DNA from: Paraglaciecola sp.
Lineage (GTDB): Bacteria; Pseudomonadota; Gammaproteobacteria; Enterobacterales; Alteromonadaceae
Assembly (NCBI GenBank): GCA_009993955.1
Contig: JAACSL010000005.1
Span: 1 to 64,000, forward strand
Length of the DNA stretch: 64,000 nt
Direction: 5' to 3'
The notes under the pieces are model-generated. The model saw only the letters and a program-made list of their open reading frames with translations, was not told where the DNA came from and searched no databases. Position numbers and translations under genes: made by a program. The stretch's first letter is position 1, and every line of letters begins with the position of its first letter. This document shows, piece after piece, positions 6,876 to 58,226 of the stretch.

Positions 6876-7205
6876 TTAAACGTTAAAACTCTCGCCACAA
6901 CCACATTCGCCATTGGCATTGGGGTTGTTGAATTGAAAACCTTCGTTGAGCCCTTCTTTGGCAAAATCAAGTTGAGTGCCATCGAGATACACTAGACTTT
7001 TACCATCGATGATTATTTTGATGCCATTGTCTTCAAACACCTGGTCGTCAGGGTTTAATTCATCAACGAATTCCAGCACATAGGCCAAACCTGAACAACC
7101 CGTGGTTTTAACACCCAAACGTAAGCCAAGACCAGAACCTCGGTTTGCTAAAAACGTTTTGGCGCGTTGCGCCGCAGCTTCAGATACTTTAATACCCACC
7201 TGCAC
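6876..7205 (-). CDS. iscA: A-type Fe-S carrier IscA
   Basis: 109 aa with the three conserved cysteines of A-type carriers: TTGCSGLAY near residue 36 and GECGCGES near the C-terminus. It accepts clusters from IscU and passes them to apo-proteins. Length and motifs fit IscA; position between iscU and hscB distinguishes it from ErpA and SufA. Confidence 0.95.
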
Positions 7206-7222
7206 TTCCCCTTCGTGACTGC

Positions 7223-7606: not shown

Positions 7607-7704
7607 TTTCTTTGCCTCTGGCGAGCCTAAGCTCGCGTTAATGTTAAAAGTGGCATTGGCGAGTCTTGGTGACTCATGCCTTACCATCACGTTTGTTCGT
7701 AAAC

Positions 7705-41609: not shown

Positions 41610-41855
41610 TCAGTATATACCTTGATGACAAGGACAAATAGTAGCCTGTGTCATGAGCATTTACCTAATCCCCCGTCCGCCATTTTATCATCTCGGGTGC
41701 TTATCTCGACACGACATTCACATTATGAATAATGAAAATGAAAGATATCATCTTTTTATATGGGGCTAACCTGATTAGGATGAGCTCAAACGGTGAACCC
41801 ACCCATCATTACAGTTCACTTTAGCTCGATACCCTACTATTACAAGGAACCTAAC

Positions 41856-43457
41856 ATGTCGACTTATCACAACGATATCGCATCATTTGAAAAATTACGC
41901 AGTGCACAAAAAGGGACTTGGAATGCTATCAGCCCTACCTATGCGGCGCGTATGAAAGCACAGAACCGCTTCAAAACTGGTTTAGACATTGCCAAATATA
42001 CTGCTGCGATTATGCGCAAAGACATGGCTGACTACGACCTCAACCCCGCTGACTACACACAGTCTTTGGGATGCTGGCACGGCTTTATTGGTCAACAAAA
42101 AATGTTGGCAGTGAAAAAACATCACGGTACAACTGACAAACGTTATTTATATCTGTCTGGCTGGATGGTTGCAGCATTGCGTTCTGAATTTGGTCCGCTG
42201 CCTGACCAAAGTATGCATGAAAAAACCACGGTACCCGCCCTTATTGAGGAATTGTATACCTTCTTACGTCAAGCCGATGCCCGTGAACTAGGTGATTTGT
42301 TCAAACAGCTGGATAAAGCCGAAGCTGAAGGCAAAGACATGAGTGCCATTCTCAAACAAATCGAAGAATATGAAACCCATGTCGTACCAATTATCGCTGA
42401 CATTGACGCAGGTTTTGGCAACGAAGAGGCCACGTATTTATTAGCTAAAAAAATGATTGAAGCCGGTGCTTGTTGTATTCAAATTGAAAACCAAGTGTCT
42501 GATGCTAAGCAATGTGGTCACCAAGACGGCAAAGTCACCGTTCCCCATGAAGATTTCTTAGCCAAGATCAACGCCGTGCGTTATGCCTTTTTAGAACTTG
42601 GTGTAGATGATGGTGTGATTGTGGCACGCACTGACTCTTTAGGCGCTGGCTTAACCCAAAAAATCCCCGTGTCTCAATCTGCGGGTGACCTAGCAGCCCA
42701 ATACAACAGTTTCTTAGAGACCACGGTTGTTAATTCAATTGATGAATTGCAAGAAGGTGACTCAGTTTTAAAACAAGATGGTAAATTAGTGAAACCTGTG
42801 CGTTTACCCAATGGTTTGTATAAATTTAAAGACGGCAGCGGCTTTGATCGCGTGGTATTGGACTGTGTGACGTCCTTGCAAAATGGTGCAGATTTATTGT
42901 GGATTGAGACCGAGAAACCACACGTAGGGCAGATTGGTGATATGGTTCGCGCGATTCGTCAAACCATCCCTAACGCTAAATTAGTTTACAATAATTCACC
43001 GTCGTTCAACTGGACCTTAAACTTCCGTCAACAAGTGTTTGATTTATGGCAGTCAGAAGGCCGTGACTTGAGTGCTTACCAACGTGAAGCCTTAATGTCT
43101 GTGCAATATGACGATAGCGAGTTAGCAAAAATTGCTGATGAAAAAATCCGCACCTTCCAAGCAGATGCAGCGCGTGAAGCAGGTATTTTCCATCACTTAA
43201 TCACCCTGCCCACTTATCACACTGCCGCCTTATCAACTGATAATTTGGCAAAAGGTTATTTCGGTGCCGAAGGTATGTTGGCCTATGTGAAAGGCGTTCA
43301 GCGTCAGGAGTTACGTCAAGGTTTAGCCTGTGTGAAACACCAAGCCATGGCCGGATCGAATTTAGGTGATGATCATAAAGAATATTTCTCGGGTGAGCAG
43401 GCACTGAAAGCATCAGGCAAAGACAACACCATGAACCAGTTCGATATGGCGGTTTAA
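41856..43457 (+). CDS. aceA: Isocitrate lyase (large form)
   Basis: 533 aa from the ATG at 41856 (AAGGAAC upstream); a longer frame from 41793 lacks support. Active-site loop DAKQCGHQDGKV holds the catalytic cysteine near residue 220. Substrate-binding segments PIIADIDAGFGNEEATYLL and VARTDSLGAGL are intact. The length fits the large ICL of Pseudomonas and Alteromonas rather than the 434-aa E. coli form. It splits isocitrate into glyoxylate and succinate. Malate synthase G lies 1.3 kb downstream, so the whole glyoxylate shunt is here. Confidence 0.96.
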   Translation: MSTYHNDIASFEKLRSAQKGTWNAISPTYAARMKAQNRFKTGLDIAKYTAAIMRKDMADYDLNPADYTQSLGCWHGFIGQQKMLAVKKHHGTTDKRYLYLSGWMVAALRSEFGPLPDQSMHEKTTVPALIEELYTFLRQADARELGDLFKQLDKAEAEGKDMSAILKQIEEYETHVVPIIADIDAGFGNEEATYLLAKKMIEAGACCIQIENQVSDAKQCGHQDGKVTVPHEDFLAKINAVRYAFLELGVDDGVIVARTDSLGAGLTQKIPVSQSAGDLAAQYNSFLETTVVNSIDELQEGDSVLKQDGKLVKPVRLPNGLYKFKDGSGFDRVVLDCVTSLQNGADLLWIETEKPHVGQIGDMVRAIRQTIPNAKLVYNNSPSFNWTLNFRQQVFDLWQSEGRDLSAYQREALMSVQYDDSELAKIADEKIRTFQADAAREAGIFHHLITLPTYHTAALSTDNLAKGYFGAEGMLAYVKGVQRQELRQGLACVKHQAMAGSNLGDDHKEYFSGEQALKASGKDNTMNQFDMAV

Positions 43458-43483
43458 TACCTCAATTGGTTTGCATCTAAAAG

Positions 43484-43516
43484 CTCGGCCGTCCAAGCGG
43501 ACCGCCGAGTTTTTTT
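43484..43516 (+). terminator. Terminator after aceA
   Basis: CTCGGCCGTCC pairs with GGACCGCCGAG (one mismatch) around AAGC and is followed by seven T. Confidence 0.88.
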
Positions 43517-43725
43517 ATATTTATCGTATTACCTCATCGATAATGTGAATGTTTTAACAAGCTTAAAAATTCGACTTTTTAAATAAAACATTTAGTTCAT
43601 AAATTTATGTATTTGTTTTTATTAGAGTAATTTTAATATTATCCATTTTAAGAATTATCTGGTCTTCTTAAGCAAGCTAGGTAAAATTCAGTATTAGTAT
43701 TTTATTTCCTGGTCACATCAACAGT

Positions 43726-44667
43726 ATGAATATTGCAAAAATTGATCTTAATTTACTGGTTTACCTTGATGTATTACTCCGCGAGGGCAGTGTCACCAAA
43801 GCGGCCAATCATCTGAGTATTACCCAACCAGCAATGAGCAATGGTCTGAAACGCTTACGTGATGTGTTCAAAGACCCCTTGATGGTGCGCACCAGTGATG
43901 GCATGACACCCACCAAACGAGCCCAGGAGCTCCAACCAATTATTCGCGATGTATTGGCCAAACTCGAATCAGCGATTCAACCTGAAACCGAGTTTTCGCC
44001 TTTGTCGAGTGAACGAACGTTTCGCATTATGGCTAGCGATTACGCTGAATCGACCTTACTCATGGAAGTGATCCGACGCCTAGGGCATTTGGCACCGAAT
44101 ATTACCCTTGATCTTATTACCCCCAGTGACGTGAGTTTTCATGATGTCGAGCAGGGGCGCGTAGACATGGCCATTAATCGCTTTGAGGAACTTCCTCTGT
44201 CCTTTCACCAAAAAGTGATTTGGTACGACACCTTTTCCTGTGTATTGAACGCCACCAATCCAGTGGTAAAGCAACTTGATCTCAATAACTATTTAGCCAG
44301 CAAGCATATATGGGTGAGTAAAACCGGTTTTGGCGTGGGCGTGGGCATTGATCCTACCGAAGTGCAAAAGCTCGGGTGGGTAGATGCAGAACTCACAAAA
44401 ATCGGCAAAAAACGTGATATTCGAGTGTTCACTCGCCACTATCATGTGGCTTTGCAGTTGGCAAAGGCGCAAAACTTGATCGCTACCCTGCCGAGCAAAG
44501 CTGCAAACTTATATCGCAATGATCCGGAAGTTGAAATTGTGGTACCTCCCTTTGATATTCCGCCTATCGCGTTGAAAATGGCCTGGAGTGCCTTGCTCCA
44601 GCATGATGCTGGCCATATTTGGTTACGACGCCTCATTACTGATATTGGTGCTGAACTAGCCGGTTGA
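43726..44667 (+). CDS. LysR-family regulator between the glyoxylate-shunt genes
   Basis: 313 aa. N-terminal winged helix (LLVYLDVLLREGSVTKAANHL, TQPAMSNGLKRLRDVF, residues 8-66) of the NodD/LinR-like LysR subtype, then an effector domain. Its position between aceA and glcB, on the same strand, suggests that it controls one or both. It is separated from aceA by a terminator and a 210-base AT-rich gap, and lies 116 bases before glcB. The ligand is unknown. Confidence 0.87.
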   Translation: MNIAKIDLNLLVYLDVLLREGSVTKAANHLSITQPAMSNGLKRLRDVFKDPLMVRTSDGMTPTKRAQELQPIIRDVLAKLESAIQPETEFSPLSSERTFRIMASDYAESTLLMEVIRRLGHLAPNITLDLITPSDVSFHDVEQGRVDMAINRFEELPLSFHQKVIWYDTFSCVLNATNPVVKQLDLNNYLASKHIWVSKTGFGVGVGIDPTEVQKLGWVDAELTKIGKKRDIRVFTRHYHVALQLAKAQNLIATLPSKAANLYRNDPEVEIVVPPFDIPPIALKMAWSALLQHDAGHIWLRRLITDIGAELAG

Positions 44668-44783
44668 TTAATTGTAGCAACTCAATATCATTTTCATGAA
44701 TAGCTAGGATGCATATCATAAATTAAACAATATAAAAGCAACGGCCTATGATGCGCTCATGTTTAGATTTTTGTGAGACGTGC

Positions 44784-46973
44784 ATGCAAGATTATATCGC
44801 TTTGGGTCAACTACAGGTTGCCCCTTCCCTACATCACTTTATTAATAAACAAGTATTACCAAACAGCGGGCTTAGTGAGACCGAATTTTGGTCAGGCCTG
44901 GCATTGTTATATGCCGAATTAATGCCGGTTAATCGGGCTTTATTAGATAAACGCGACGCCCTACAACAATTATTAGATAACTATTGCACAACACATAAAA
45001 GCCAAGATTTCGAGCACTACAAACAGTTCTTGGCTGACATTGGCTATTTGCTTCCAGCACCTGACGATTTTGCCATTGGTACACAAAACGTCGATGTTGA
45101 AATTGCGCAAATGGCAGGCCCACAGTTAGTGGTGCCCATCAACAATGCCCGCTTTGCACTTAATGCGGCCAACGCCCGTTGGGGCAGTTTATATGATGCT
45201 GCCTATGGCACGGACGTGATTGATGAGCTTGCGGGAAAAACGAAATCAGGGCCATTTAACCCTACTAGGGGCAAAGCTGTGGTTGAATATGCTAGGCAGT
45301 GGTTAGACCGTATTTTGCCCTTAACAACAGGTAGCCACAAAGATGCCATTCACTACTCTTTAGCAAATGGTGCGTTGTTGGTTAATTTTAGCAATGGCAC
45401 CACTGCAAGTCTTGAGGATGCCAAGCAACTTATCGGTGTTAGCGGTAGCGTTAATGCGCCACAAAGTTTGTTGTTTAAACACCACAACTTGCATGTTGAG
45501 ATGGTTTTTGACGGCGATCACAAAAATGCCAGTGGTGATCCCGCAGGCATCAAAGACATTATTATCGAAGCCGCCCTCACCACTATTATGGATTGTGAAG
45601 ATTCAGTGGCGGCAGTGGATGCAGAAGATAAAACGGCGGTTTATCAAAATTGGCTTGGACTAATTTTAGGTAACCTAAGTACAGATTTGTCTCAGGGGAC
45701 ACGCACCGTCACGCGGCGTTTGAATGACGATCGCCAGTATCAAACACTCGCTGGTGAGTCATTTTCATTAAATGGGCGCAGTCTGATGTTTATCCGTAAT
45801 GTTGGCCATCTGATGACCAGCGATGCCATGTTATTTGAAGGGCAAGAAGTTCCGGAAGGCATTATGGATGCGGCGGTGACCGCACTGATTGCTAAACATG
45901 ATTTACTTGGCCACGGTAAATACAGAAACAGCAAAACAGGCAGTATCTACATCGTGAAACCTAAAATGCACGGCCCTGAAGAAGTGGCTTTTGCCAATAC
46001 GTTGTTTAGTCGCGTGGAGACGCTGCTTAAACTGCCGCAAAATACCATAAAAATGGGGATCATGGATGAAGAGCGCCGCACCAGCATCAATTTAAAAGCT
46101 TGCATTCATGCGGCGAAAGACCGAGCGGTTTTTATTAATACCGGCTTTTTAGACCGCACCGGCGATGAAATCCATTCTTCTATGTTATTGGGTGCCTTTG
46201 CGCCTAAAGCCGAGATTAAAACTAAACCTTGGTTAGCGGCTTATGAAAAGCTGAACGTGATCAACGGTATAGTTACCGGCATGTCTGGTAAAGCGCAGAT
46301 TGGTAAAGGCATGTGGCCCATTCCCGATCAAATGGCCAACATGATGACCAATAAGCTTGGACATGTGCAGTCTGGCGCCAATACCGCATGGGTGCCTTCG
46401 CCTACGGCGGCCACCTTACACGCCCTGCACTATCATCAACTGGACGTCTTCAAGCTGCGCGACACCCTAGAGCTTAATGGTGCCGGTATGCTGGATGACA
46501 TCTTAACTATTCCTTTGGCAACGAATATTGAACAATTGAGCCAGCAAGCTATCGAGCAGGAGCTAACAAACAACGTACAAGGCATCTTAGGCTATGTGGT
46601 GCGTTGGGTTAATCAGGGCATTGGTTGCTCAAAAGTGCCAGACATCAATAATGTAGGACTAATGGAAGACCGCGCAACATTGCGCATTTCTAGTCAACAT
46701 ATTGCTAATTGGTTAGAACATGGCATCGTTAGTGCCGCACAGGTTGACGAAGCACTAGAAAAGATGGCCGTGTTAGTTGACCAGCAAAACGCCCATGATG
46801 CTGGTTATATTAAGATGACCCCTAATACTGCTGAGTCTATTGCTTTTAAGGCGGCACGGGATTTGATTTTTGAGGGAAAAACACAACCGAATGGTTATAC
46901 AGAGCCATTGTTACATGCGAGCCGTCGATTGTTTAAACAAAACAACTTAATACCCGTAGAACAGACCAAGTGA
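44784..46973 (+). CDS. glcB: Malate synthase G
   Basis: 729 aa from the ATG at 44784, which gives the family start (MQDYIALGQLQVAPSLHHFIN); the ATG at 44748 is a possible alternative. Features include ALNAANARWGSLYDAAYGTD, the acetyl-CoA/glyoxylate site in MDCEDSVAAVDAEDK, TVTRRLNDDR and GIMDEERRTSINL. It condenses glyoxylate with acetyl-CoA to malate. Its stop is only 2 bases from the stop of the convergent nucleotidyltransferase gene. Confidence 0.96.
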   Translation: MQDYIALGQLQVAPSLHHFINKQVLPNSGLSETEFWSGLALLYAELMPVNRALLDKRDALQQLLDNYCTTHKSQDFEHYKQFLADIGYLLPAPDDFAIGTQNVDVEIAQMAGPQLVVPINNARFALNAANARWGSLYDAAYGTDVIDELAGKTKSGPFNPTRGKAVVEYARQWLDRILPLTTGSHKDAIHYSLANGALLVNFSNGTTASLEDAKQLIGVSGSVNAPQSLLFKHHNLHVEMVFDGDHKNASGDPAGIKDIIIEAALTTIMDCEDSVAAVDAEDKTAVYQNWLGLILGNLSTDLSQGTRTVTRRLNDDRQYQTLAGESFSLNGRSLMFIRNVGHLMTSDAMLFEGQEVPEGIMDAAVTALIAKHDLLGHGKYRNSKTGSIYIVKPKMHGPEEVAFANTLFSRVETLLKLPQNTIKMGIMDEERRTSINLKACIHAAKDRAVFINTGFLDRTGDEIHSSMLLGAFAPKAEIKTKPWLAAYEKLNVINGIVTGMSGKAQIGKGMWPIPDQMANMMTNKLGHVQSGANTAWVPSPTAATLHALHYHQLDVFKLRDTLELNGAGMLDDILTIPLATNIEQLSQQAIEQELTNNVQGILGYVVRWVNQGIGCSKVPDINNVGLMEDRATLRISSQHIANWLEHGIVSAAQVDEALEKMAVLVDQQNAHDAGYIKMTPNTAESIAFKAARDLIFEGKTQPNGYTEPLLHASRRLFKQNNLIPVEQTK

Positions 46974-46975: not shown

Positions 46976-48088
46976 TTATTTAGCGGTTGAAGTCTGGGTA
47001 TCTGTTTGTTTTCCCAGAATATGTTGCAAAAAAGCTAACCATAGCTTAACTGAAAAATGTTTACACAATACGTGTATGGGCATTTTTAACCAATGCCCAC
47101 GCACGTAAGCAACACTTCTTGCAGTGGCACTTCTCCATGTAGTGAGCAATGTGTGATTTGGCGTGATGGCGTGCTGATAAACGTTCAATAAAAGGCGATT
47201 ACTTGGTTTTGCGGCGAAAGTTTGCACCTCATTTGTCAATTCTCTTGGCACATCCCCTCTAAATAAACGAGCACGAAGAACAAGCGCCATCGATAACTCA
47301 TCTTGAAAACCGGTTTGTTTTGCAAGCTCAGTTAAATTTTGCCAAAAATCCGTACTCTGGTAGTCAGCGATTAGCAAATGAATATCCAGCATATCACGAT
47401 AGGCATTGGTGAAGTCTTCATTCATAAAAAGGTGAATAATCGAGTGCAGCAATGACGCTGGCGCATTAAGCACGATACTTCCATCATCTAGTTGCTCTGT
47501 ATGCTGCCAAAACAGCTCTATCTTTGGGGCTCTGCCGCTTATCGGAAGATAAAGATTGTGATGCATATCAACGACTGTGCCGCGCAGTGGATGTCGCAGA
47601 GGAGGGATCTCGTGAGCCCATTTTCGGTAATATTGTTCATCGTAATCGGAGACTTTTTTGAGCTGCCAATTATTTAATTTGAACATCTTCTCAGCTTCAA
47701 GCAGCTCACCTTGTTTAACAAGAATATCAATGTCTGACAATATCCTGCCCTTTGCCGTGGAGCATTGACGCAATATATAATTGGCACCCTTCAAAAAAAC
47801 ACACTCAATACCAGAGGCAACCAGAATGCGTTTTATCTCAGATACTTCGTACAGCACCTGCTGTTGTTGGCGCTGCTGATAATTCCGCGCAGAAAACAAA
47901 TGACGCTGCACCTGTTCCGGATAAGACTCAATGCACTGGTGCTTTTCAGCCTGCCAATAAAAACTGGCCAAGAGATTTGCATGACGAAGCATAAATAACC
48001 ATTCTTGCCACTGCTCCAGGGAAAAGTGTGCAGCCCGCTGTGGAAAGAGTATTGACTGAGAAAGATCGTCTACGGTCCAACGATTCAT
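46976..48088 (-). CDS. Nucleotidyltransferase-family protein of the HPr-rel-A cassette
   Basis: 370 aa. The segment GIECVFLKGANYILRQ followed by RILSDIDILVK (near residue 117) is the nucleotidyltransferase-fold signature with the D-x-D metal site, as in the uncharacterised NTP_transf_5 family. The ATG overlaps the stop of the kinase gene by 4 bases (ATGA), so the two are translationally coupled. In lasso-peptide clusters related nucleotidyltransferases act with HprK-like kinases on the peptide. A similar job here is inference. Substrate unknown. Confidence 0.8.
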   Translation of the reverse strand: MNRWTVDDLSQSILFPQRAAHFSLEQWQEWLFMLRHANLLASFYWQAEKHQCIESYPEQVQRHLFSARNYQQRQQQQVLYEVSEIKRILVASGIECVFLKGANYILRQCSTAKGRILSDIDILVKQGELLEAEKMFKLNNWQLKKVSDYDEQYYRKWAHEIPPLRHPLRGTVVDMHHNLYLPISGRAPKIELFWQHTEQLDDGSIVLNAPASLLHSIIHLFMNEDFTNAYRDMLDIHLLIADYQSTDFWQNLTELAKQTGFQDELSMALVLRARLFRGDVPRELTNEVQTFAAKPSNRLLLNVYQHAITPNHTLLTTWRSATARSVAYVRGHWLKMPIHVLCKHFSVKLWLAFLQHILGKQTDTQTSTAK

Positions 48089-48927
48089 CTGACTAATTCA
48101 TCCAAACAATCACTCAACTCGACGTAATCAGCATATTGACACTCAAAAAACTCTGCACGGTTTGCAAGGCGTCCCATGGTCTCAAAGCCCAGTTTACCCA
48201 TCACATCATAGTTGAAGGCATTTTTGATTACCCGAGAAAACCCTTCTACTTTGTCCAACTGATAAAAACTAAATTCACAGCCGTTTTTATACTGCGGGAA
48301 CACTACAGCGGCGATTTCGCACGGTGTAAAGTTACTATGTTCATGCCAGGTTAAGGCTTTCAAATGAGCAACATCACCCTTCTGAGTATCTCGGCAAGTA
48401 GGGGTAAATTGTGCTTGTGGAAAGTGTTTTTTGATTAAATCAATGGAGTTGTTTTTCAAACAGACAGGTCTGTATAGCGGATGTACCAAGGCACTAGATG
48501 GTTCAATAATTGCCATCTCGTCTGAGTAGAGTTGCCAGCCACTCAGACTAAAAAATGCGGTTAATGTGCTCTTACCTGAACCTGGCATCGCAGGGAAAAC
48601 TATGGCCTTGTTATTCTTGACCAACACCGCTGAATGCAAAATTAAGCGGGTAAACTCATGAGCGGCAATACACCAATTCATGCCCCATTCTAACAAGGCA
48701 AAAGCATGTTCAGCAGGCAAGGGCATAAAGGGTTTGTATTGGTTAACTTCAAACATCACATGAGGTTTGATGACTCTGCGTAACATGGACCCAGTAGTGA
48801 GTGCGACGGGAAAGTCTATGAAATCGGATACAGTAGGCACATCTCCATAGATTAGCTGCAATGCCCGGTCAATATTCTGATGGGTTCTTTGCAAACTGAA
48901 GCAATATAAACCTGTATTTATATGCAA
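48085..48927 (-). CDS. HprK-related kinase A
   Basis: 280 aa. The P-loop is PAMPGSGKSTLTAFF near residue 112 and a Walker B-like LYSDEMAII follows about 22 residues on, as in the C-terminal half of HPr kinase. The rest does not match HPr kinase, and no HPr gene is nearby. This fits HprK-related kinase A, a family known from cassettes with a PqqD-like protein. Relatives such as PadeK phosphorylate a serine of a lasso peptide. It starts 10 bases after the PqqD-like gene and overlaps the nucleotidyltransferase. Confidence 0.85.
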   Translation of the reverse strand: MHINTGLYCFSLQRTHQNIDRALQLIYGDVPTVSDFIDFPVALTTGSMLRRVIKPHVMFEVNQYKPFMPLPAEHAFALLEWGMNWCIAAHEFTRLILHSAVLVKNNKAIVFPAMPGSGKSTLTAFFSLSGWQLYSDEMAIIEPSSALVHPLYRPVCLKNNSIDLIKKHFPQAQFTPTCRDTQKGDVAHLKALTWHEHSNFTPCEIAAVVFPQYKNGCEFSFYQLDKVEGFSRVIKNAFNYDVMGKLGFETMGRLANRAEFFECQYADYVELSDCLDELVR

Positions 48928-48936
48928 GTTAAACCC

Positions 48937-49203
48937 TTAGGTGATGCAGTATTGATGTTTGGTTAACCAGTCCAAACCAGCACAAGTTTGTGCATCAGGA
49001 AGCTTAAAACACTGGGCTAGTTGATCATAAGAAACCGATTCACCGGCTAGGAAATGAATAAGTGTTTCGCTGACGTCGGCGACATCTACACAAATAGTAT
49101 TGCCAGAACCATTATCATATAAACAAAAGCCACTATTGTCGTTTAACAATAGTGACTCGCAGTTGGGATTTAATACAATACTTGTTGTCACTGTGTTAAT
49201 CAC
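48937..49203 (-). CDS. PqqD-like (RRE-type) protein of the HPr-rel-A cassette
   Basis: 88 aa starting at a GTG (49203). Small winged-helix-like protein (DVADVSETLIHFLAGESVSYDQLAQCF, LDWLTKHQYCIT) in the size class of PqqD and RiPP recognition elements, which bind leader peptides and present them to modifying enzymes. The sequence match alone is weak; the call rests on size, pattern and the HprK-related kinase directly downstream. 53 bases after the Tat-signal gene. Confidence 0.7.
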   Translation of the reverse strand: MINTVTTSIVLNPNCESLLLNDNSGFCLYDNGSGNTICVDVADVSETLIHFLAGESVSYDQLAQCFKLPDAQTCAGLDWLTKHQYCIT

Positions 49204-49256
49204 CGATATTGCAATGAGACTCGCTAATTACCGCGACTACACAATGTTCCACAAAT

Positions 49257-49913
49257 TTATGGTTTTACTGTGCTTAACGCTGAGCACTCTAACAATTCAT
49301 AAGTGGTACTTGTATTACTGACATCAAAGTTAAAATTGAATGTAGCAGCTCGACCTTGATTGGCTTCAGTGACCAAGTACAAAATGATACTGTTAACAAG
49401 TGCACTGGCAACTTCATGATTATTAGCGTTGTCAATGTTGTATAAACCAAAATATGAGTTTAAATACACACCTGCTAGATTAAATTCTAAAGAGCCATCA
49501 GCACCACCATTTGACTCTAAAGCCGCTCGCAAATTATCAGAGGGGCCGGTAAACAAACTATTCAAATCCATACTTGTTGTATCGATGAACTCATTCACAT
49601 AATTTCGGTAACACTTGTTTCTTGGGCTGTCTTTTGCACCCGAATTTACAAAGATTGCATGGCACATTTTACGAATATTTTTCCATGCGCCAGGTGAGCG
49701 TCCACCAACAATTGGCGGTATTTCACATTCATGACGACTGAAACTTGATAAATTTCCTGACATAGCTCCGGATACAGAGCATGCTCCCCAAGCCGAAGTG
49801 GCAGGCAATGCAGTAATAACCGCACCGGCTGCGGATTTTTTCAAGAAAATACGACGTGGAGTGTTGCCACCATTACCAGCGCTACTGATGTCCTTTTTTT
49901 CTACATCACTCAT
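49257..49913 (-). CDS. Tat-exported protein, candidate client of the modification cassette
   Basis: 218 aa from the ATG at 49913 (AGAGG upstream). The twin-arginine signal is PRRIFLKKSAAGAVITALPATSAWGA (residues about 18-45, given in the protein as PRRIFLKK followed by a hydrophobic stretch). The mature part has five Cys (ACSVSG, HECEIPP, KMCHAIF, NKCYRNY, LECSAL), a Trp/Gly segment SPGAWKNIRKM, and ends LSTVKP. Fold unknown. Tat export implies folding, or modification, in the cytoplasm before export. It is first in line before the PqqD, kinase and nucleotidyltransferase genes. A -24/-12 promoter candidate is 36 bases upstream. Confidence 0.75.
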   Translation of the reverse strand: MSDVEKKDISSAGNGGNTPRRIFLKKSAAGAVITALPATSAWGACSVSGAMSGNLSSFSRHECEIPPIVGGRSPGAWKNIRKMCHAIFVNSGAKDSPRNKCYRNYVNEFIDTTSMDLNSLFTGPSDNLRAALESNGGADGSLEFNLAGVYLNSYFGLYNIDNANNHEVASALVNSIILYLVTEANQGRAATFNFNFDVSNTSTTYELLECSALSTVKP

Positions 49914-49948
49914 GAGAACCTCTATAAAAACGTAAACTAACATTCCTT

Positions 49949-49964
49949 AGCAATAATCAAACCA
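49949..49964 (-). promoter_or_regulatory. Candidate sigma-54 promoter of the Tat-protein cassette
   Basis: On the minus strand TGGTTTGATTATTGCT has GG and GC exactly 10 bases apart and a good -12 half (TTGCT). The -24 half is weaker than at the PEP-CTERM genes. It would start transcription about 24 bases before the ATG at 49913. Confidence 0.5.
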
Positions 49965-50045: not shown

Positions 50046-50822
50046 TTATAGCGCTATTCCATTGCGCTTGGCGAGCTTTCTTAAATGACTGATTGGAATA
50101 GCATAGCTGATGCCACTTGGTTTTTCTAACACCGTTTCTTTTGTTTCTTTGATAAAAACTTTATTTAAAATACCTATCACCTCTCCGGTTTCAGACAAAT
50201 AAACAGGGCTACCACTATTCCCAGGATAGGCCGTAATATCTAACTGATAAATAAATTGAGGGTTCTGCAAGCGCTCAATTATGGTGTTATTTAAATTTTG
50301 CGCGTTGGCGGTGGGAATAACGTCTGGAGTAGTTGCTGCAACAATACCACGGTGGGTGGCAGGGTAAAGCCCTAAAACTGCACCAATTGGAAAACCAGTG
50401 AGCAATATTTCGCTGCCATCAGCGACAAAGTCATCCCCCGCCAATCGAATTGGTTGTAACTTTTCGCTCATTTTTAGAAGCGCTATATCATGTTCTTGAT
50501 CTACATCTAATAACTCAACTTTGTAGATATTTGGTTTACGACCGATGCCCGCAAAGACGATATGGTATTCGACTATTTTACTATCCAGAGGCTGTGACAC
50601 CACATGATAATTTGTCACAATAAGTGAGCCATCACCCACAACAAACCCCGTGCCCCTCAGTTGATGAGTTTGGCTTGCCATCGCATTGTAACGCCCTATG
50701 CCAACTACAGATGATTTGGTGGCGCTCACCACCTCAGTAAGCGAATGTGCGACACATTGGCCTTGCATTACACTCATTAAAAAAAGACTTGAAAGCAGTG
50801 AGTGGATAGTCAGTCTAAACAT
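50046..50822 (-). CDS. Secreted trypsin-like serine protease
   Basis: 258 aa. Signal peptide at residues 1-25 (ending QCVAHS). Chymotrypsin-fold catalytic triad: His in VTNYHVVSQ near residue 73, Asp in EHDIALLKMSE near 115 and Ser in YPGNSGSPVYL near 201. No PDZ domain, so it is not a full DegP/DegQ. The gene is upstream of and co-directional with the Tat-protein cassette, 132 bases away, with the candidate promoter in between. It may process exported proteins of the cassette, which is inference from position. Confidence 0.87.
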   Translation of the reverse strand: MFRLTIHSLLSSLFLMSVMQGQCVAHSLTEVVSATKSSVVGIGRYNAMASQTHQLRGTGFVVGDGSLIVTNYHVVSQPLDSKIVEYHIVFAGIGRKPNIYKVELLDVDQEHDIALLKMSEKLQPIRLAGDDFVADGSEILLTGFPIGAVLGLYPATHRGIVAATTPDVIPTANAQNLNNTIIERLQNPQFIYQLDITAYPGNSGSPVYLSETGEVIGILNKVFIKETKETVLEKPSGISYAIPISHLRKLAKRNGIAL

Positions 50823-50938: not shown

Positions 50939-51955
50939 TTGAAAATTCTCGTAACAGGTGCGGCTGGTTTTATTGGTTTTCATTTAAGTAAATATTTATT
51001 AGCGCGTGGTGACACCATTATCGGCATTGATAACCTAAATGATTATTATGATGTTGGTTTGAAACAAGCGAGACTAGATGAGCTCTTAAGTTCAGATACC
51101 TCCTCATGTTTCACCTTTAAAAAAATGGACATTGCTAATCGCGATGACATGGAGAAATTATTTAAAGAAGAGCAGTTCGACAAAGTTGTACATTTGGCCG
51201 CACAGGCTGGTGTGAGATATTCAATCGACAACCCTCATGCTTATGTTGAGAGTAATCTGATAGGTTTTATGAATGTGTTAGAAGGGTGCCGACATAATCA
51301 TGTACAGCATTTAGTGTACGCCTCTTCGAGCTCAGTTTATGGTGCGAATGAGACCATGCCCTTCTCTGTCAATGACAATGTTGACCATCCAGTATCCCTT
51401 TACGCAGCGAGCAAAAAGGCTAACGAATTAATGGCTCACACCTACAGTCATTTGTATAAACTACCTACAACAGGGTTAAGGTTTTTCACGGTGTATGGGC
51501 CGTGGGGTAGACCAGATATGGCTTTGTTTAAATTCACGCAAGCAATCCAAAATAATCAAGCGATAGATGTTTACAATTATGGGGATCATCAGCGTGACTT
51601 TACCTACATTGACGACATTATCCAAGGTATAGTGTTGAGTTTGGATCAACACGTACAAGGAAACCCAGCGTGGAGTGGCTTGAATCCTGATCCAAGTACA
51701 AGCAGAGCGCCTTGGAAGATATACAATATCGGCGCACAAAAACCCGTCAATCTGTTGAATTTTATTGAAACCCTTGAGTCTGCGTTGGGTAAAAAAGCCA
51801 TTAAGAATATGCTACCTATGCAGGCAGGGGATGTTCAAAATACCTATGCTGATGTGTCTGCCTTAAGTACCGATGTAGGTTATCAACCGCGTACTAGCAT
51901 ACAACAAGGCATCAAAGCTTTTGTCGATTGGTATTTAGACTACTATGGCGTTTAA
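50939..51955 (+). CDS. NAD-dependent epimerase, UDP-glucuronate 4-epimerase-like
   Basis: 338 aa. Extended short-chain dehydrogenase: NAD motif [18 protein letters not shown] at the N-terminus, [19 protein letters not shown], catalytic [13 protein letters not shown] (Y-x3-K) and [18 protein letters not shown]. These features fit UDP-glucuronate 4-epimerase, which makes UDP-galacturonate for surface polysaccharide. The start is a TTG (50939) with AGGGG upstream. It is divergent from the protease gene and opens the plus-strand surface cassette. Confidence 0.9.
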
Positions 51956-52029
51956 TTAAAGAAATTGCGCTCTAGCCAAATAAGTTATGCGTTTGGGTTG
52001 AAATGGCAATGTAATGGGAACTAGAGTAA

Positions 52030-52797
52030 ATGTTCAGTGATCTCGCAAATGCATTGTCGTCTCCGCTTGTACACGGTCCTATCACATTCATTATTCTGCG
52101 CATTCTGTTACGCTTCACTGAGCGAAAGTGGTGGCAACAGGCCTTTACCTACTTACCCGTGGCGTGGGTATTTTTATGTGCTTCCACTTACCCAAGCATA
52201 CTTTTAGTTAGACATTTAGAGAACAAATTTCCTCCTTTACCTTTGGCGTCCACGTCTTGGCAAAGCGCTGACACTATAGTCGTGATGGCTTGTTATTATT
52301 TCGATGATGAAAATTTGCCGTTGGTGAGTCGTTGGCCACGATGCTCATTGCAAAGAAACTTGCAAGCAGCCATGCTGTATAAAATAAAGAAATTGCCGAT
52401 ATACTTGGCTGGAGGAAAACTATTTAGCGAAGATAGAATGTCTCAAGCAGAGTTTAATAAGTCAGTTTTAGTAAAACTCGGTGTGGATGAGCGCGACATT
52501 GTCGTTATATCTAAAGGCTACAATACCCAGACTGAAGTGCATGCTTTGACTGACAATTTGTCAGCTAAAAAGATAGTTTTGATCACATCAGCCGCTCATA
52601 TGCCAAGAGCTGTTGGATATTTTTCCCACTCAAGTACCAATATTATTGCAAGCCCTGTTGATTATCTTGCCAGAACCGACGTTGGCTTCAAAGTGACATT
52701 ACCAAACGCGCAAAGTTTGTATCGAAGTGAGCGAGCAATCCATGAATATTTAGGCTTATTTGAGCAACACTTTCAATTGCAAACTGCTATACATTAA
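52030..52797 (+). CDS. YdcF/ElyC-family membrane protein (DUF218)
   Basis: 255 aa. One or two membrane helices (residues about 33-60) are followed by a DUF218 domain: DTIVVMACYYFDDE, LPIYLAGGKLFSEDRMS, ISKGYNTQTEVHAL and IVLITSAAHMPRAVGYF. Relatives act in envelope biogenesis (ElyC, SanA), but their chemistry is unclear. Located between the epimerase and patatin genes. Confidence 0.85.
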   Translation: MFSDLANALSSPLVHGPITFIILRILLRFTERKWWQQAFTYLPVAWVFLCASTYPSILLVRHLENKFPPLPLASTSWQSADTIVVMACYYFDDENLPLVSRWPRCSLQRNLQAAMLYKIKKLPIYLAGGKLFSEDRMSQAEFNKSVLVKLGVDERDIVVISKGYNTQTEVHALTDNLSAKKIVLITSAAHMPRAVGYFSHSSTNIIASPVDYLARTDVGFKVTLPNAQSLYRSERAIHEYLGLFEQHFQLQTAIH

Positions 52798-52850
52798 TCA
52801 CCTAAAATGCTTTTTTATTTTGTTCAAGCAGACGTAATACTGGATGCTAC

Positions 52851-53684
52851 ATGATTGAAACGAGTTCTAAACAGAAAATCGTACCGATATTGTCAGGTGG
52901 GGGCACTCGACTCACTGCCCACATCGGCGTCATAAAAGCATTAAATGATTTAGAGTTAAATTTTACACATATGGTTGGTGTGTCTGGCGGTTCAATTGTT
53001 TCTTCGCTCTACTGCGCTGGAATGCCGCTGGACGATATTAAGCGTTTGTCCATCGATACAGATTTCAAAATATTCCGTGGATTCTCACTTTTCAGATTAT
53101 TGCGACAAGGTGGATTAAGCTCCGGTGATAAATTTGAACAGTGGATGGATAAACATTTAAAAGGATTAACGTTTAACGAGCTTGAAAAAGACCTCCATAT
53201 TTTAGCAACTGATGTTAATGGTGGAGGACCGGTAGTATTCAATCGCCAAACAAGTCCTAATCTAAAAGTGTCACAAGCGGTCAGATATTCGATGTCAATC
53301 CCACTTTTTTTTAGCTTCAAGCACTATAACGACCACCTTTTGGTTGATGGGGCAATTTTGTCTGAGGATGCCTTGTATCAAGACTGGGCCGGCGATGGTA
53401 CTAAGATTATTTGCTTCAGATTGAAGAGTGACCACATTGCAAGTCGAGTAATAAAAAAGAGTTGGTTGCCTCTTGGGCAATATGTAATGATGTTGATTCG
53501 GACCTTTATGATAGCGTTGTCACGAGAATATGTTCACGCTAATAATTGGCATAGCACCATCGTCATCAATACGGGCATTTTGTCTCCTGTTGATTTCAAC
53601 ATTTCTAGTGAACAAAAAGAACAGCTTTTTCAAATCGGCTATAATACAACTCTCGAATACGTGCGCAAAAGACTTGGTTTTTAG
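52851..53684 (+). CDS. Patatin-like phospholipase
   Basis: 277 aa. Oxyanion motif LSGGGTRLTAHIGVIKAL, nucleophile in GVSGGSIVSSLY (G-x-S-x-G, Ser near residue 46) and catalytic aspartate in LVDGAILSED (D-G-A). A cytoplasmic acyl hydrolase of the RssA/YjjU type. No signal peptide. Next gene begins 48 bases later and is a fatty-acyl N-acyltransferase, so acyl-chain chemistry is likely a theme here. Confidence 0.88.
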   Translation: MIETSSKQKIVPILSGGGTRLTAHIGVIKALNDLELNFTHMVGVSGGSIVSSLYCAGMPLDDIKRLSIDTDFKIFRGFSLFRLLRQGGLSSGDKFEQWMDKHLKGLTFNELEKDLHILATDVNGGGPVVFNRQTSPNLKVSQAVRYSMSIPLFFSFKHYNDHLLVDGAILSEDALYQDWAGDGTKIICFRLKSDHIASRVIKKSWLPLGQYVMMLIRTFMIALSREYVHANNWHSTIVINTGILSPVDFNISSEQKEQLFQIGYNTTLEYVRKRLGF

Positions 53685-53731
53685 TCACAATGGACGTTTA
53701 TGCAGACAAAAATGATAAGAGATAGAAGCTG

Positions 53732-54553
53732 ATGAAGGACTTGCGTAACTATGCTGACAAACCATTTATTGGTCCGCTTGTCAAAAAAGTCATTAACTTC
53801 ACCGTTAGTCGCCAAGCCAGTCAAATAGCTTCGCACTTCAATGAATATTTGCGACCTGAAGTTGCATTTACTGACTCGTTGCGAAATGAGTCGTTTAAAA
53901 TTCGTCATAACGTGTATTGTGAAGAATTAAAATTTGAAGACATTAAGCAGGATGGGATGGAAAAAGATGGCTTCGATCTTCATTCTACTCATTGCCTTAT
54001 TCGACACAGACCAACCGGTGCATTTGCAGGCACCGTCCGCATAGTCAGAGCAGACAGCAAAGACCAACTGCTGCCAATCGAAAAATACTGCATTCATTCA
54101 ATTTCAGACGAAAAAGTACATCCGAGTGACTTTCCTCGTCACGAGATATGTGAGATCTCTCGCCTAGCCGTCCCCGCTCAGTTCCGTAAAAGGGCTGCTG
54201 ATAAATTCAGTGGCTCCGCAACAGGTGTGATCAATGAGCACATATATTCTGAAAAAGAACTACGTTGTTTTCCTTTTATCGCCGTTGGCCTTTATCTGTC
54301 TGCTGCGTCAATTACCCTGCAACATGGTATTCAACATTGTTTTGTCATGATGGAGCCGAGATTAGCCAGAAGTCTACGATTTGTTGGCATCCCATTTGAC
54401 CAAGTTGGGCCAGTTGTTGAATACCATGGTAAACGTGCTCCTTTTTATATCAGCCGAGAATTGCTGATGAATGGACTTAGCCCAGGCTTTAAAAACATGC
54501 TCAAAAGCATAGATAAAGAAGTTAACAGCCAGTTTAAACAGCATAAACGCTGA
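53732..54553 (+). CDS. PEP-CTERM/exosortase-associated N-acyltransferase
   Basis: 273 aa. FKIRHNVYCEELKFEDIKQDGMEKDGFD and the later HEICEISRLAVPAQFR fit the exosortase-associated acyltransferase family, which is related to N-acyl amino acid synthases (FeeM) and autoinducer synthases of the GNAT type. The expected reaction is transfer of an acyl group from acyl-ACP to an amino group. Its presence supports the reading of this region as part of a PEP-CTERM/exosortase system. The acceptor is unknown. Confidence 0.87.
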   Translation: MKDLRNYADKPFIGPLVKKVINFTVSRQASQIASHFNEYLRPEVAFTDSLRNESFKIRHNVYCEELKFEDIKQDGMEKDGFDLHSTHCLIRHRPTGAFAGTVRIVRADSKDQLLPIEKYCIHSISDEKVHPSDFPRHEICEISRLAVPAQFRKRAADKFSGSATGVINEHIYSEKELRCFPFIAVGLYLSAASITLQHGIQHCFVMMEPRLARSLRFVGIPFDQVGPVVEYHGKRAPFYISRELLMNGLSPGFKNMLKSIDKEVNSQFKQHKR

Positions 54554-54617
54554 TTTTCAGTTTTAAATTTACACATGCTCATTGTAAGCTTTTTAAGCAA
54601 CAAAATTAGGAAACCCT

Positions 54618-55466
54618 ATGTTTGAATATAATGATGCATTCTCAAGAAACATTGGTTGGCTAAGCCCTGACGAACAACAAATCTTAAGGGCCAAGAAGAT
54701 CGCCATTGCAGGTGCTGGGGGAGTTGGAGGCGAGCACCTGATTACCATGGTCAGACTTGGCGTGGGCAATTTTAATATTTCAGATTTTGACGAATTTGAA
54801 GTGCACAATTTCAATCGTCAATGTGGCGCCTTCATGAGCACGGTTAAGCAACCAAAATGCCGAGTTATGTTGGACATAGCTAAAGATATTAACCCCGAGC
54901 TACATATCGCTATGTTTGAAAATGGCGTAAACAAGGAAAACGTTGACGAATTCTTAGCTGACGTCGACCTTTACATTGATAGTTTGGACTTTTTTGCTTT
55001 AGATGCGCGTAAATTAGTGTTCCAAAAATGCCAAGATAAAAAAATACCAATAGTAACAGCTGCTCCATTAGGTATGGGGGCTGCCCTCCTGTGTTTTAAA
55101 CCTGGCAGCATGACATTCGAAGAATACTTCTGCTTCGGCCAACATTCCAAACATGAGCAATTGCTGAGATTTTTAGTAGGCCTTTCACCTAGCATGTTAC
55201 AGAGACCATATTTGGTGATGCCTGAAAAAGCAGACTTTAAAGCAGAGAAAGGCCCTTCTACGCCTATGTCAGTAAAAATGTGTGCAGGTTTAGCTGGAAC
55301 TTATGCCTTGAAAATATTATTGAATAGAGGAAAAGTACTTGCCGCTCCTCACGGATTACATTTTGACGCTTACACTAACCAGTTCAAAAAAACGTATTTA
55401 CCATTTGGTAACAAAGGGCTAATCCAACGTTTAAAAATATGGATTGCTCGTAAAATTGTTTTGTAG
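54618..55466 (+). CDS. E1/ThiF-family adenylyltransferase
   Basis: 282 aa. ATP-binding loop IAIAGAGGVGGEHLITMVRLGVG near residue 30, then DFDEFEVHNFNRQCGA with the arginine that contacts ATP, and the DLYIDSLDFFALDAR region. Family members adenylate the C-terminus of a small protein or a carboxylate. There are no zinc CxxC pairs, and no ubiquitin-like or ThiS-like gene is adjacent, so the substrate is unknown. It closes the cassette and is followed by a bidirectional terminator. Confidence 0.87.
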   Translation: MFEYNDAFSRNIGWLSPDEQQILRAKKIAIAGAGGVGGEHLITMVRLGVGNFNISDFDEFEVHNFNRQCGAFMSTVKQPKCRVMLDIAKDINPELHIAMFENGVNKENVDEFLADVDLYIDSLDFFALDARKLVFQKCQDKKIPIVTAAPLGMGAALLCFKPGSMTFEEYFCFGQHSKHEQLLRFLVGLSPSMLQRPYLVMPEKADFKAEKGPSTPMSVKMCAGLAGTYALKILLNRGKVLAAPHGLHFDAYTNQFKKTYLPFGNKGLIQRLKIWIARKIVL

Positions 55467-55593: not shown

Positions 55594-56571
55594 TTAGCTA
55601 TTTTTTCTTCTTGCGTTCATTGCTAAACCGAACAAACCAAGTCCAAGCAACGCTAAGCTAGCAGGAGCAGGTACTAGAACCGCTCTAATGGCAAAAGAAG
55701 CTTCAAGTAAATTTGATGCAAGCTCTTCAGTTCTGAAACCTAAACACGGAGTTGATTGACTACCGCAGTATAAAGTGTTGATCGCCAAACCAGTTAAACG
55801 AGTGGTCACTTCATATTTGGTTACTAGGTCTAACGATGCAGCTAGAGCAGCAGGGAAGCCTAAATCAACTAAGTCAAAGGTGTTTTTGAACTCAATGTAA
55901 TCGTTGCTGGGGTCTGCATCGCCCAAATCGTTAATTGTAATCGTTACACCTGCAATTGGCGAAATGATAAAATAGTCATCACATCCAAAATTTGGCGCAT
56001 TAGGATCTGTACCTGCTACAGAACCGTCGATACAAATGCCGCCTTGAGGAACACCAGCGATAATGCCAGCAGGGCTGTTAGGCGTTTCTAAGAATTCAAA
56101 CGAAATCTCTAGCTCTGGTGCCAAGCCTTCTATCAGTGCGATAGGTGCAGCTGGCACAACGTTCCAAGCTTGAGCAGTCAATTTCAAACCATCAAGAATC
56201 TTGGCGTTGTCAAGGCTTGCACCACTGATTCTGTAGTTATTGTGTCTGATGTCAGTACCCTGCTCAAAATCACCATCAACCAAAGCACCAGTCGCGGTTG
56301 TGATAGTGCCTGTAACTGGGGTATCGATTTCAAGGAAACTGTTTCCATCAACTGGGTTAACAGCTGTGCCCCAGCTCAATTTTTTCCATGTGTCTGCACT
56401 AAGGATTGTTGATCCAGCGCTTTGAAAACCACTTTTGACTACGCTTGCTGGGCTTGGATCAGTAAAACCCGCTTCGTTTACATAACCCCACTGGGTAATC
56501 ATTGCAGCGTTAGCCAAACCACTAACACCAAGGGCAATAGCTGCGACGGTAGCTTTAATAGACGTTTTCAT
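55594..56571 (-). CDS. THxN-type PEP-CTERM surface protein (paralogue 1)
   Basis: 325 aa from the ATG at 56571 (GAGGAAC upstream). Signal peptide at residues 1-22 (ending LANA). The body has DTWKKLSWGTA, RHNNYRI (the H-x-N signature region), GLAPELEISFEFLETPN and FGCDDYFII. The sorting tail is VPAPASLALLGLGLFGLAM followed by ARRKNS: a PAPA motif in place of PEP, a hydrophobic helix and a basic end. It is expected to be secreted, then anchored or released by an exosortase. Paralogue of the divergent gene at 57264. Has a candidate sigma-54 promoter at 56655. Confidence 0.85.
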   Translation of the reverse strand: MKTSIKATVAAIALGVSGLANAAMITQWGYVNEAGFTDPSPASVVKSGFQSAGSTILSADTWKKLSWGTAVNPVDGNSFLEIDTPVTGTITTATGALVDGDFEQGTDIRHNNYRISGASLDNAKILDGLKLTAQAWNVVPAAPIALIEGLAPELEISFEFLETPNSPAGIIAGVPQGGICIDGSVAGTDPNAPNFGCDDYFIISPIAGVTITINDLGDADPSNDYIEFKNTFDLVDLGFPAALAASLDLVTKYEVTTRLTGLAINTLYCGSQSTPCLGFRTEELASNLLEASFAIRAVLVPAPASLALLGLGLFGLAMNARRKNS

Positions 56572-56654
56572 ATATATGTTCCTCAACCTGATGAATTCCA
56601 ATTTTCAGCGCCTCTACTACTACTTTACTGTGGGGCGTTTCTCACTTTATTTAA

Positions 56655-57199: not shown

Positions 57200-57263
57200 T
57201 AAACAAATTGTCTTCATCAACAACTCATTGCAGTACATATTGCAGTAAATAGGAAATATGATT

Positions 57264-58226
57264 ATGAAAATTTTGAACAAGATTGCTTTATCAGTTGCAC
57301 TGCTTGGCGCAACTTCTATCGCTAACGCTGGTATGATTACTCAATGGAGTTATATCAATGAAGCGGGTTTTACCGCAGCTGAACCAAATGCTGTAACTAA
57401 GTCTGGTTTTGTTTCTGCCGGTAGCAGCATTTTAACTCAAGACACGTGGAAAAAGTTGAGCTGGGGCGATGCACTTACTCCGTCTGGCAAAAGCTCGTTA
57501 GTGGTTGATAGCCCAGTAACTGGTGTTATCAATACTGCAAACGTAGGTCAATCACTGGCAGATAGCGATTTCCAACAAGGCACTGACCTTATCCACAACA
57601 ACTACCGTATCGGTGGTCCAAGCTCAAATGCATTGACTGGCGCTACTTTGCTTGACGGTTTGAAATTATCTGCAGCGAACTGGGATGTGCCTTTTGATTT
57701 GAGCGGCATTGAAGGTTTAGCGCCAGAGTTATCCATCAAGTTTGACTTTTTGGAAACCCCTAATCGCCCAGCTGGTAAATGTGTTGATGGCTCCACGCCC
57801 GGAACAGATGTTAACGATGTTGACCCTAACGAAAAATTTGGCTGTGATGACTATTTCATTTTAGACCCATTAAGCGGTTTAAATGTAACGTTGAATGACC
57901 GTGGCGACCTTGACCCAACTAACGATTTTGTTGAATTCACAACAACTTTTGATTTGATCGATTTAGGTTTCCCTAAAGCCCTTGCACAATCATTACAGTT
58001 GGTCACTAAATATGAAGTGGTAACACGTTTAACTGGCTTAACAGTTACAACATTATTCTGTGGCAATCAAGCAGCACCATGTTTAGGTTTTGCCACTGAA
58101 GAATTGAAAAAGAACGTATTGTTTGCTTCTTTCGCGGTTCGTGCTGTTCCAGCCCCTGCCGGTCTTGCTTTCCTTGGCTTAGCTTTATTGGGTCTTGGCA
58201 TCAACGCACGTAGAAAAAAAGCGTAA
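57264..58226 (+). CDS. THxN-type PEP-CTERM surface protein (paralogue 2)
   Basis: 320 aa from the ATG at 57264 (AGGA at 9 bases); an ATG at 57258 is too close to the ribosome site. Signal peptide ending SIANA. Closely parallels paralogue 1 along its whole length: MITQWSYINEAGFT, DTWKKLSWGDA, LIHNNYRIGG, GLAPELSIKFDFLETPN, FGCDDYFIL, TKYEVVTRLTGL. The tail is VPAPAGLAFLGLALLGLGI then ARRKKA, a PEP-CTERM-type signal with PAPA. Function of the family unknown. Confidence 0.86.
   Translation: MKILNKIALSVALLGATSIANAGMITQWSYINEAGFTAAEPNAVTKSGFVSAGSSILTQDTWKKLSWGDALTPSGKSSLVVDSPVTGVINTANVGQSLADSDFQQGTDLIHNNYRIGGPSSNALTGATLLDGLKLSAANWDVPFDLSGIEGLAPELSIKFDFLETPNRPAGKCVDGSTPGTDVNDVDPNEKFGCDDYFILDPLSGLNVTLNDRGDLDPTNDFVEFTTTFDLIDLGFPKALAQSLQLVTKYEVVTRLTGLTVTTLFCGNQAAPCLGFATEELKKNVLFASFAVRAVPAPAGLAFLGLALLGLGINARRKKA

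Follow-up and report, generated by a model that had tools for sequence, protein, structure and literature searches.

An HprK-related kinase A cassette of Paraglaciecola and the Tat-signal protein proposed as its client

HPr-rel-A genes are named by NCBIfam, and the literature searched gives no statement of their substrate, so a locus that carries them raises the question of what their enzymes modify. One such locus lies in a 64,000-nucleotide stretch of Paraglaciecola sp. DNA (GenBank assembly GCA_009993955.1, contig JAACSL010000005.1, positions 1 to 64,000; hereafter the window), where a minus-strand run of four genes at 46976-49943 encodes a nucleotidyltransferase (NTase), an HprK-related kinase, a protein of PqqD size and a protein with a twin-arginine translocation (Tat) signal, here called the client. 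An earlier interpretation made from the DNA letters alone (the sequence-only reading) had described this run, and all four genes were found where it had put them, with the open reading frames (ORFs), TIGR04352 and PF14907 in agreement. On balance we favor a model in which the HPr-rel-A cassette modifies its own exported client, such that the kinase and the NTase, guided by a RiPP (ribosomally synthesized and posttranslationally modified peptide) recognition element (RRE), would act on a serine before Tat export and within an exosortase/exopolysaccharide program. The features are listed below, with client residues counted from the ORF start at 49943 and model confidence given as the AlphaFold2 predicted local distance difference test score (pLDDT).

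46976..48088, minus strand: nucleotidyltransferase, PF14907 NTP_transf_5 (134.9 bits; cut-off, 31.2)
48085..48927, minus strand: HprK-related kinase A with a TTG start, NCBIfam TIGR04352 (293.5 bits; cut-off, 200)
48937..49203, minus strand: PqqD/RRE-like protein of 88 amino acids (aa), assigned by its position between client and kinase and by a score of 15.7 bits with a profile that excludes the window protein
49257..49943, minus strand: client, a Tat-signal protein of 228 aa as an ORF, with homologues in 103 of 107 loci
49913, minus strand: probable client start M11, predicted from a sigma-54-like site, for a product of 218 aa
49782..49856, minus strand: twin-arginine signal peptide RRIFLKK...ATSAWGA, from R30 and R31 to A54, with RR 98-99% conserved in 106 aligned clients
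49746..49772, minus strand: S58-x3-S62-x3-S66, predicted acceptor serines directly behind the signal peptide (94, 98 and 97% Ser)
49344..49694, minus strand: helical domain of the client, residues 84-200 (AlphaFold2 block pLDDT, 71-92)
49949..49964, minus strand: sigma-54-like -24/-12 site TGGTTTGATTATTGCT upstream of the client (score, 23 of 29)
50046..50822, minus strand: upstream trypsin-like protease gene, PF13365, an optional partner of uncertain membership

The linkage of the client to the kinase was assessed in two collections. Recurrence of the cassette gene order, seen in about 100 loci, far exceeds what chance would give. The named collection comprised the best 80 of 101 kinase loci; 110 loci were scanned, many of them only about 3-4 kb long, and 107 were nonredundant after removal of the duplicates L037 and L041 and of L097, which has no kinase ORF. 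A client homologue lay beside the kinase in 103 of these 107 loci, with 109 proteins in all; in 87 loci it was upstream of the kinase, and in 16 it was downstream of the NTase. Two of the four client-less loci (L030 and L031) carry kinases below the cut-off, and in the other two (L082 and L109) the contig breaks off close to the enzymes. Client homology is also evident without the iterated profile: the window sequence by itself detected 42 of the 110 loci at 1e-3. NTase homologues were present in 106 of the 110 scanned loci, and the PqqD-like protein was recognized by profile in 89 of the 107. In an order-wide sample of 295 genomes, 33 had a kinase match and 28 had one over the cut-off. The client profile, A1, matched 30 of the 295, namely, 27 of the 28 kinase genomes versus 3 of the 267 without a kinase (Fisher 8.6e-34), a value to be taken as a guide only, as loci and genomes are mutually related and P values are thereby overstated, and as some profile rows come from genomes apparently in the sample (L037 has the kinase of G272, and L041 has that of G172). 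The sole kinase genome missed, G052, encodes a Tat-signal protein at the expected position with a weak A1 match (1.6e-6 among 260 ORFs) that lies mostly over the signal. The three matches in genomes without a kinase (G016, G173 and G215) are other proteins that have only the helical domain in common with the client (profile positions 73-181). The window's genome held exactly one client match, even at an E value of 10. The sequence-only reading had asked whether a Tat protein always adjoins HprK-related kinase A and had named absence from most cassettes as the contrary outcome; adjacency was near constant, and that absence was not seen. We conclude that the adjacent Tat protein is very probably the partner of the cassette enzymes.

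The client family is divergent around a few fixed positions. Identity to the window protein ranged from 16 to 46% across 72 relatives, and the alignment retained 106 of 109 rows after L055 and L077 (long false N-terminal extensions) and one of two L039 pieces were dropped. The conserved residues were R30 and R31 (98-99%), S58 (94%), S62 (98%), S66 (97%) and N162 (92%). The spacing S-x3-S-x3-S occurred within residues 16-150 in 96 of the 106 clients versus 13.5% of shuffled copies. A strict Tat pattern was found in 89 of the 109 clients versus 19 of 872 other predicted ORFs and missed 20 clients, most of which have a visible RR signal. The window client itself has the RRIFLKK twin-arginine motif, an uncharged h-region and an AxA-like site. 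The curated Tat models TIGR01409 and TIGR02811 gave weak matches in 4 and 5 of 73 family members and none in the window client. The sequence-only reading had also asked whether the adjacent Tat proteins have the same five-cysteine pattern; as a family feature that pattern was discarded, and only C55 and C73 are conserved. Both cysteines were present in 88 of the 106 clients, neither in 14 and one in 4, and because they covary, a disulfide between them is suggested.

Structure prediction placed the conserved serines in a flexible-looking part of the client. The AlphaFold2 model had a mean pLDDT of 69.7 and a predicted template modeling score of 0.66; the S58/S62/S66 segment had a block pLDDT of 48-57 and forms a low-confidence linker between the signal peptide and the helical domain. 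A fold search of the PDB with the model gave no match below an E value of 1 (best, 1.3). The window client matched no family in Pfam or NCBIfam, with stray matches only above an E value of 0.05; together with its 72 relatives it gave weak Tat-signal and stray matches only, and PEP-CTERM models found zero matches at 0.01 among the 73 clients. Helical domains of the client type (G-[ST]PG[YF]WK ... LNA) were also seen at the C termini of other secreted-looking proteins, in genomes that have no kinase over the cut-off (L120, 1842-4094; L121, 5185-6003; L122, 4043-4876; L219; and L220), and the L120 and L122 proteins reached the score of no Pfam family. The five domain-bearing proteins of such genomes (G016, G173, G215, G550 and G453) had no S-x3-S-x3-S in residues 16-150; in two of them the motif lies instead within the domain or after it. 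By eye, two or three of the five have plain Sec-type signals; L220 has an RR, and L219, at a contig end, may be N-terminally incomplete. The helical domain may be an undescribed extracellular domain.

The two enzymes appear catalytically intact. An intact P-loop and a D-x-D motif had been claimed from the letters alone, and both held: GSGKS and D-x-D are present in the window and invariant in the aligned relatives, the counts omitting L030 and L031, whose kinases are below the cut-off. Kinase residues H98, G116, G118, K119, S120, D136 and E137 were invariant in 105 relatives, and NTase residues D119, D121 and D174 were invariant in 103. The kinase and NTase genes overlap by the 4 bases ATGA, as had been noted, and a 4-base overlap was the commonest gap among the relatives (34 of 104). 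PEP (phosphoenolpyruvate) carboxykinase and HprK have a common fold. The kinase model (pLDDT, 93.6) matched PEP carboxykinases (E = 3.9e-6) and HprK 3tqf (E = 4.1e-3) in Foldseek, so that the predicted structure has this fold, and the kinase profile weakly aligned the catalytic residues with the H, GKS and DD of HprK 1jb1 (E = 0.11). The window kinase gave no match to Hpr_kinase_C (PF07475), for which three relatives gave E values of 0.00043-0.0051, below its gathering score of 33.3 bits; by Pfam, the kinase is outside HprK/P membership. The one match of the kinase alone against the PDB with phmmer was an antibody and was set aside as chance. No export signal was seen by eye at the start of the enzyme ORFs. 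With catalytic residues kept and export signals absent, modification in the cytoplasm followed by Tat export fits what the sequences suggest.

The small proteins at the PqqD position are, as a family, assignable by profile to the PqqD/RRE group. The two best solved matches of their profile, A3, were the lasso B1 proteins TbiB1 (E = 0.0027) and TfuB1 (E = 0.014), modest values that hold for the family and not for the window protein alone. When TIGR04353 was applied to the PqqD proteins of nine relatives, four reached the cut-off (35 bits), four fell below it and one gave no match. Against PF05402, which has a gathering score of 23.4, the best of five relatives scored 22.4 bits and the window protein gave no match.

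The favored model runs as follows. The PqqD-like protein would bind the N-terminal region of the client (leader and Tat signal) and deliver it to the kinase, and the kinase would phosphorylate one or more of the linker serines S58, S62 and S66. The NTase would then transfer a nucleotide onto the phosphoserine or, as reported for PsmN, lead to the transfer of a sugar. Because both enzymes are predicted to be cytoplasmic, the modified, folded client would be exported by Tat rather than by Sec. A sigma-54-type promoter and ties to exosortase and PrsK/PrsR would place the cassette in an exopolysaccharide/PEP-CTERM surface program. The chemistry is modeled on lasso peptides. In the part of PMC9266682 available, PadeK phosphorylates the C-terminal Ser of its precursor, lasso kinases have a common His-Lys-Asp-Asp, PsmK and PsmN are required for phosphate and hexose, and PsmN is held responsible for hexoses on phosphoserine, with nucleotidylation followed by the action of a host enzyme not excluded. 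The part of PMC7533575 available places HPr kinase, PqqD and nucleotidyltransferase genes near lasso clusters. By analogy with PadeK and PsmN, the chances that the cassette carries out this chemistry are about even.

The regulatory setting was approached through the promoter. The sigma-54 consensus is TGGCACN5TTGCW. Regions of up to 260 bases upstream of the RR codon were scored with a scheme of our own, built on this consensus with a maximum of 29. Sites scoring at least 23 preceded 88 of 107 clients (2 skipped) versus 35 of 175 other genes with long gaps and 16 of 106 prekinase regions; at a score of at least 25, the numbers were 67, 19 and 1, respectively. An earlier form of the score, with a threshold of 24, picked out 73 of the 109 clients; among the controls it picked out 90 of 810 other genes and 15 of 545 shuffled regions. 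The top-scoring site in the window (25) lies inside the upstream protease gene, and the 23-point site nearer the start was preferred. M11 (49913) is the likely client start, because the site at 49964-49949 would set the transcription start behind the codon at 49943.

Exosortase and its associated regulators were also linked to the cassette. Exosortase (PF09721) was present in 28 of 28 kinase genomes versus 46 of 267 others in the order-wide sample. Neighbors among the 80 named loci included a gene of the PrsR cluster (21 loci), PrsK (18 loci) and an exosortase-associated acyltransferase (14 loci); NCBIfam named one member of each cluster, the PrsR one being a fragment below the cut-off. In the window's genome, exosortase lies on the same contig, about 44 kb off, and PrsK lies on another contig. 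The available part of PMC1569441 ties sigma-54 sites, PrsK, PrsR and PrsT to PEP-CTERM genes; 'HPr' and 'nucleotidyltransferase' do not occur in its main text as available. We conclude that the exosortase/sigma-54 setting probably holds for the gamma- and betaproteobacterial loci seen here.

Several results weigh against modification of the client in this way. The modification itself is so far a prediction. The window PqqD-size protein matched none of the PqqD/RRE library models, and its match to a profile of 88 others was weak, at 15.7 bits (E = 9e-5 with 130 positional candidates and 0.0043 with 6,227 ORFs), such that its assignment is weak by sequence and mainly positional. The conserved client serines could be structural. 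The client domain occurs without a cut-off kinase in 3 of 267 genomes of the order-wide sample and in 3 of 291 of a phylum-wide sample (349 genomes, 58 with a kinase over the cut-off). Across that phylum, the A1 profile matched only 24 of the 58 kinase genomes (3 of 291 others), and exosortase was found in only 29 of the 58 (38 of 291 others). An obligate dependence on exosortase in the phylum was therefore rejected; many of the 29 genomes in which none was found are fragmented, and G300 is listed as a single contig. Moreover, S-x3-S-x3-S is missing from the other client types, which means that the acceptor site cannot be identical everywhere. Finally, the trypsin-like protease lies near only part of the loci and implies no maturation step.

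Other client types with a Tat signal occur elsewhere in the phylum. We examined loci from the 51 of the 58 kinase genomes that lie outside the window's family, together with 4 below the cut-off and 2 without a kinase. An ORF with the strict Tat pattern started 350-1700 bases upstream of the kinase on the same strand in 30 of the 51 loci; in control intervals at the same distance, the counts were 2 of 51 downstream and, for the opposite strand, 6 of 51 upstream. Further RR signals were recognized by reading among the loci that the pattern missed (e.g., L166, L205, L207 and L209), and none was seen in others, in some for lack of upstream sequence. Type B clients (27 loci, selected by the signal RR..LLK...P..TL) carry a C-terminal C-W-x-S-[FL], with Ser in 27 of 27, Cys in 26 and Trp in 24; L189, L194 and L212 are atypical. 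The likeness of their signals is due to the selection, and the C-terminal motif was not selected for. C[FY]ASLQMPR is the C terminus of each of five type C clients, which were selected by another signal pattern, and it led to a sixth; a client on a Sphingomonas plasmid ends in CFLSVQNPRT. We conclude that the Tat signal is the feature common to the client types and that the likely acceptor Ser differs among them, which argues against one universal acceptor site.

Three other explanations of the cassette were weighed, each of which we consider unlikely. In the first, the client is the precursor of a small RiPP-like product, of which a short stretch is modified and then freed by an exported protease such as the neighboring trypsin-like protein. 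Consistent with a precursor are the RRE-like family, the tailoring genes of lasso type and the trypsin-like gene found near 21 of the 80 named cassettes, as well as the position of the conserved serines directly behind the signal peptide. A small product is nonetheless improbable, as window-type clients have a confidently predicted helical domain behind the serines, 59 of the 80 named loci have no clustered protease homologue, and the genome has no match to the lasso B2 type. Homologues of the trypsin-like protease were seen in 28 of the 110 scanned loci, and as a candidate general part of the system the protease was rejected on its presence in only 21 of the 80 named ones.

In a second explanation, the PqqD-like protein serves as a proofreading chaperone for Tat, and export is timed by reversible, regulatory phosphorylation or nucleotidylation. 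This would account for client types that have the Tat signal, and not the mature part, in common. Such a timing role seems improbable as well, since the strong Ser conservation falls in the mature segment and most of the 80 named loci have no further clustered gene, e.g., a phosphatase, among clusters that are only partly annotated. A third explanation, that the kinase and NTase have another target, such as a small molecule or HPr, with mere coexpression of the Tat protein, draws on the HPr gene of this genome, on the weak RRE assignment in the window and on the hypothetical nature of the client-enzyme contact, and is made improbable by the near-constant pairing with a client family that has little else conserved, by the RRE-like family between client and enzymes and by the H-K-D-D kinases of lasso clusters, which act on peptides (PMC9266682, as far as available). 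With respect to HPr, the statement that no HPr gene is present holds for the cassette; the genome has one on another contig.

Modification of the exported client, the reading that we prefer, can be set against known systems. The nearest is HPr-rel-A itself (TIGR04352 HprK-related kinase A plus TIGR04353 PqqD family peptide chaperone): the window kinase exceeds the TIGR04352 cut-off, an NTase is adjacent, four of nine relatives' PqqD proteins (though not that of the window) reach the TIGR04353 cut-off and an annotated plasmid has the same gene order, whereas no Pfam or NCBIfam model was found for the Tat client. The kinase and PqqD are already named by NCBIfam, and the client family, the candidate serines and the promoter class are newly added here. 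The lasso tailoring systems (PadeK/ThcoK and PsmK/PsmN, of paeninodin and pseudomycoidin) likewise combine an HprK-like kinase, an NTase (for PsmN, membership in PF14907 would be an assumption) and a B1/PqqD-type protein on a ribosomal substrate. They differ in that their kinases have H-K-D-D (PMC9266682, part available) and the window kinase has H-K-D-E, and in that the proposed substrate is a Tat-exported folded protein of ~20 kDa rather than a short peptide. The claim of a stand-alone cassette without a lasso protease was borne out in that the leader peptidase of lasso B2 type (PF13471) had 0 matches in the window's genome, the lasso cyclase not having been searched for. Likeness to the SynChlorMet cassette was weak and far below cut-offs (kinase versus ScmC, 0.045; one PqqD relative versus ScmD, 0.0016) in a comparison that covered ScmC and ScmD only. 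The XrtA/PEP-CTERM system (PrsK, PrsR, PrsT and sigma-54 promoters) neighbors the cassette in part of the loci and is tied to it by the sigma-54-like promoter and by co-occurrence in the order-wide sample; as the clients have no PEP-CTERM match, the link is regulatory and genomic rather than one of sorting.

In the literature searched, outside which most subscription papers lie, the terms 'HPr-rel-A', 'HprK-related kinase', SynChlorMet, TIGR04352, TIGR04353 and 'PqqD family peptide chaperone' were not found, and among the matches listed no title or abstract opened on such a cassette. The available part of the RRE-Finder paper (PMC7470986) has none of kinase, HPr or Tat as whole words. The client family, candidate acceptor serines, promoter class and biological setting make the substrate question directly testable. 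If the favored model is true, tailoring guided by a RiPP-type leader extends to folded, Tat-exported proteins, and a branch of covalent modification is added to exosortase-linked biofilm biology. A bolder version, which we regard as speculative and rather doubtful, is that the region of the Tat signal also serves as a RiPP-style leader: the RRE would dock a protein of ~20 kDa, the kinase and NTase would build a phosphodiester-linked nucleotide or sugar on the linker serines (or on the C-terminal serine in other client types), and Tat would export a folded, glycan-bearing anchor or primer for the exosortase/exopolysaccharide layer, in a widespread and unrecognized pathway.

Variants of the cassette were also observed. 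The Catenovulum sediminis client (L039) is split over two overlapping frames, 7009-7356 and 7173-7736, for which a broken gene or a sequencing error is possible. Paraglaciecola sp. MB-3u-78 (L065, 3031-9940) carries one cassette on each strand, and in one of the two the kinase ORF is short (615 bases); four loci (L069, L070, L080 and L092) have a tandem pair of client genes behind one enzyme set. Two cassette copies are on plasmids, with the client annotated 'hypothetical protein' in both records. The Vibrio alfacsensis plasmid locus (L229, 2770-5837) is a complete cassette in which the PqqD-size ORF, 3607-3861, is absent from the distributed gene table.

Malate synthase G and, by eye, an isocitrate lyase-like ORF flank the cassette of the window at 41793-46973. 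On its other side, 50939-55466 holds a row of sugar-nucleotide epimerase-like, ElyC-like, patatin-like, exosortase-associated acyltransferase and ThiF/E1-like genes; of the 80 named loci, 14 have the acyltransferase gene near the cassette and 9 have the E1-like gene there. Further along are two PEP-CTERM proteins of the THxN family (55594-56601 and 57258-58226) and, at 58547-61303, a PrsT-like TPR protein that scores 254.7 bits, short of the 312.2-bit cut-off.

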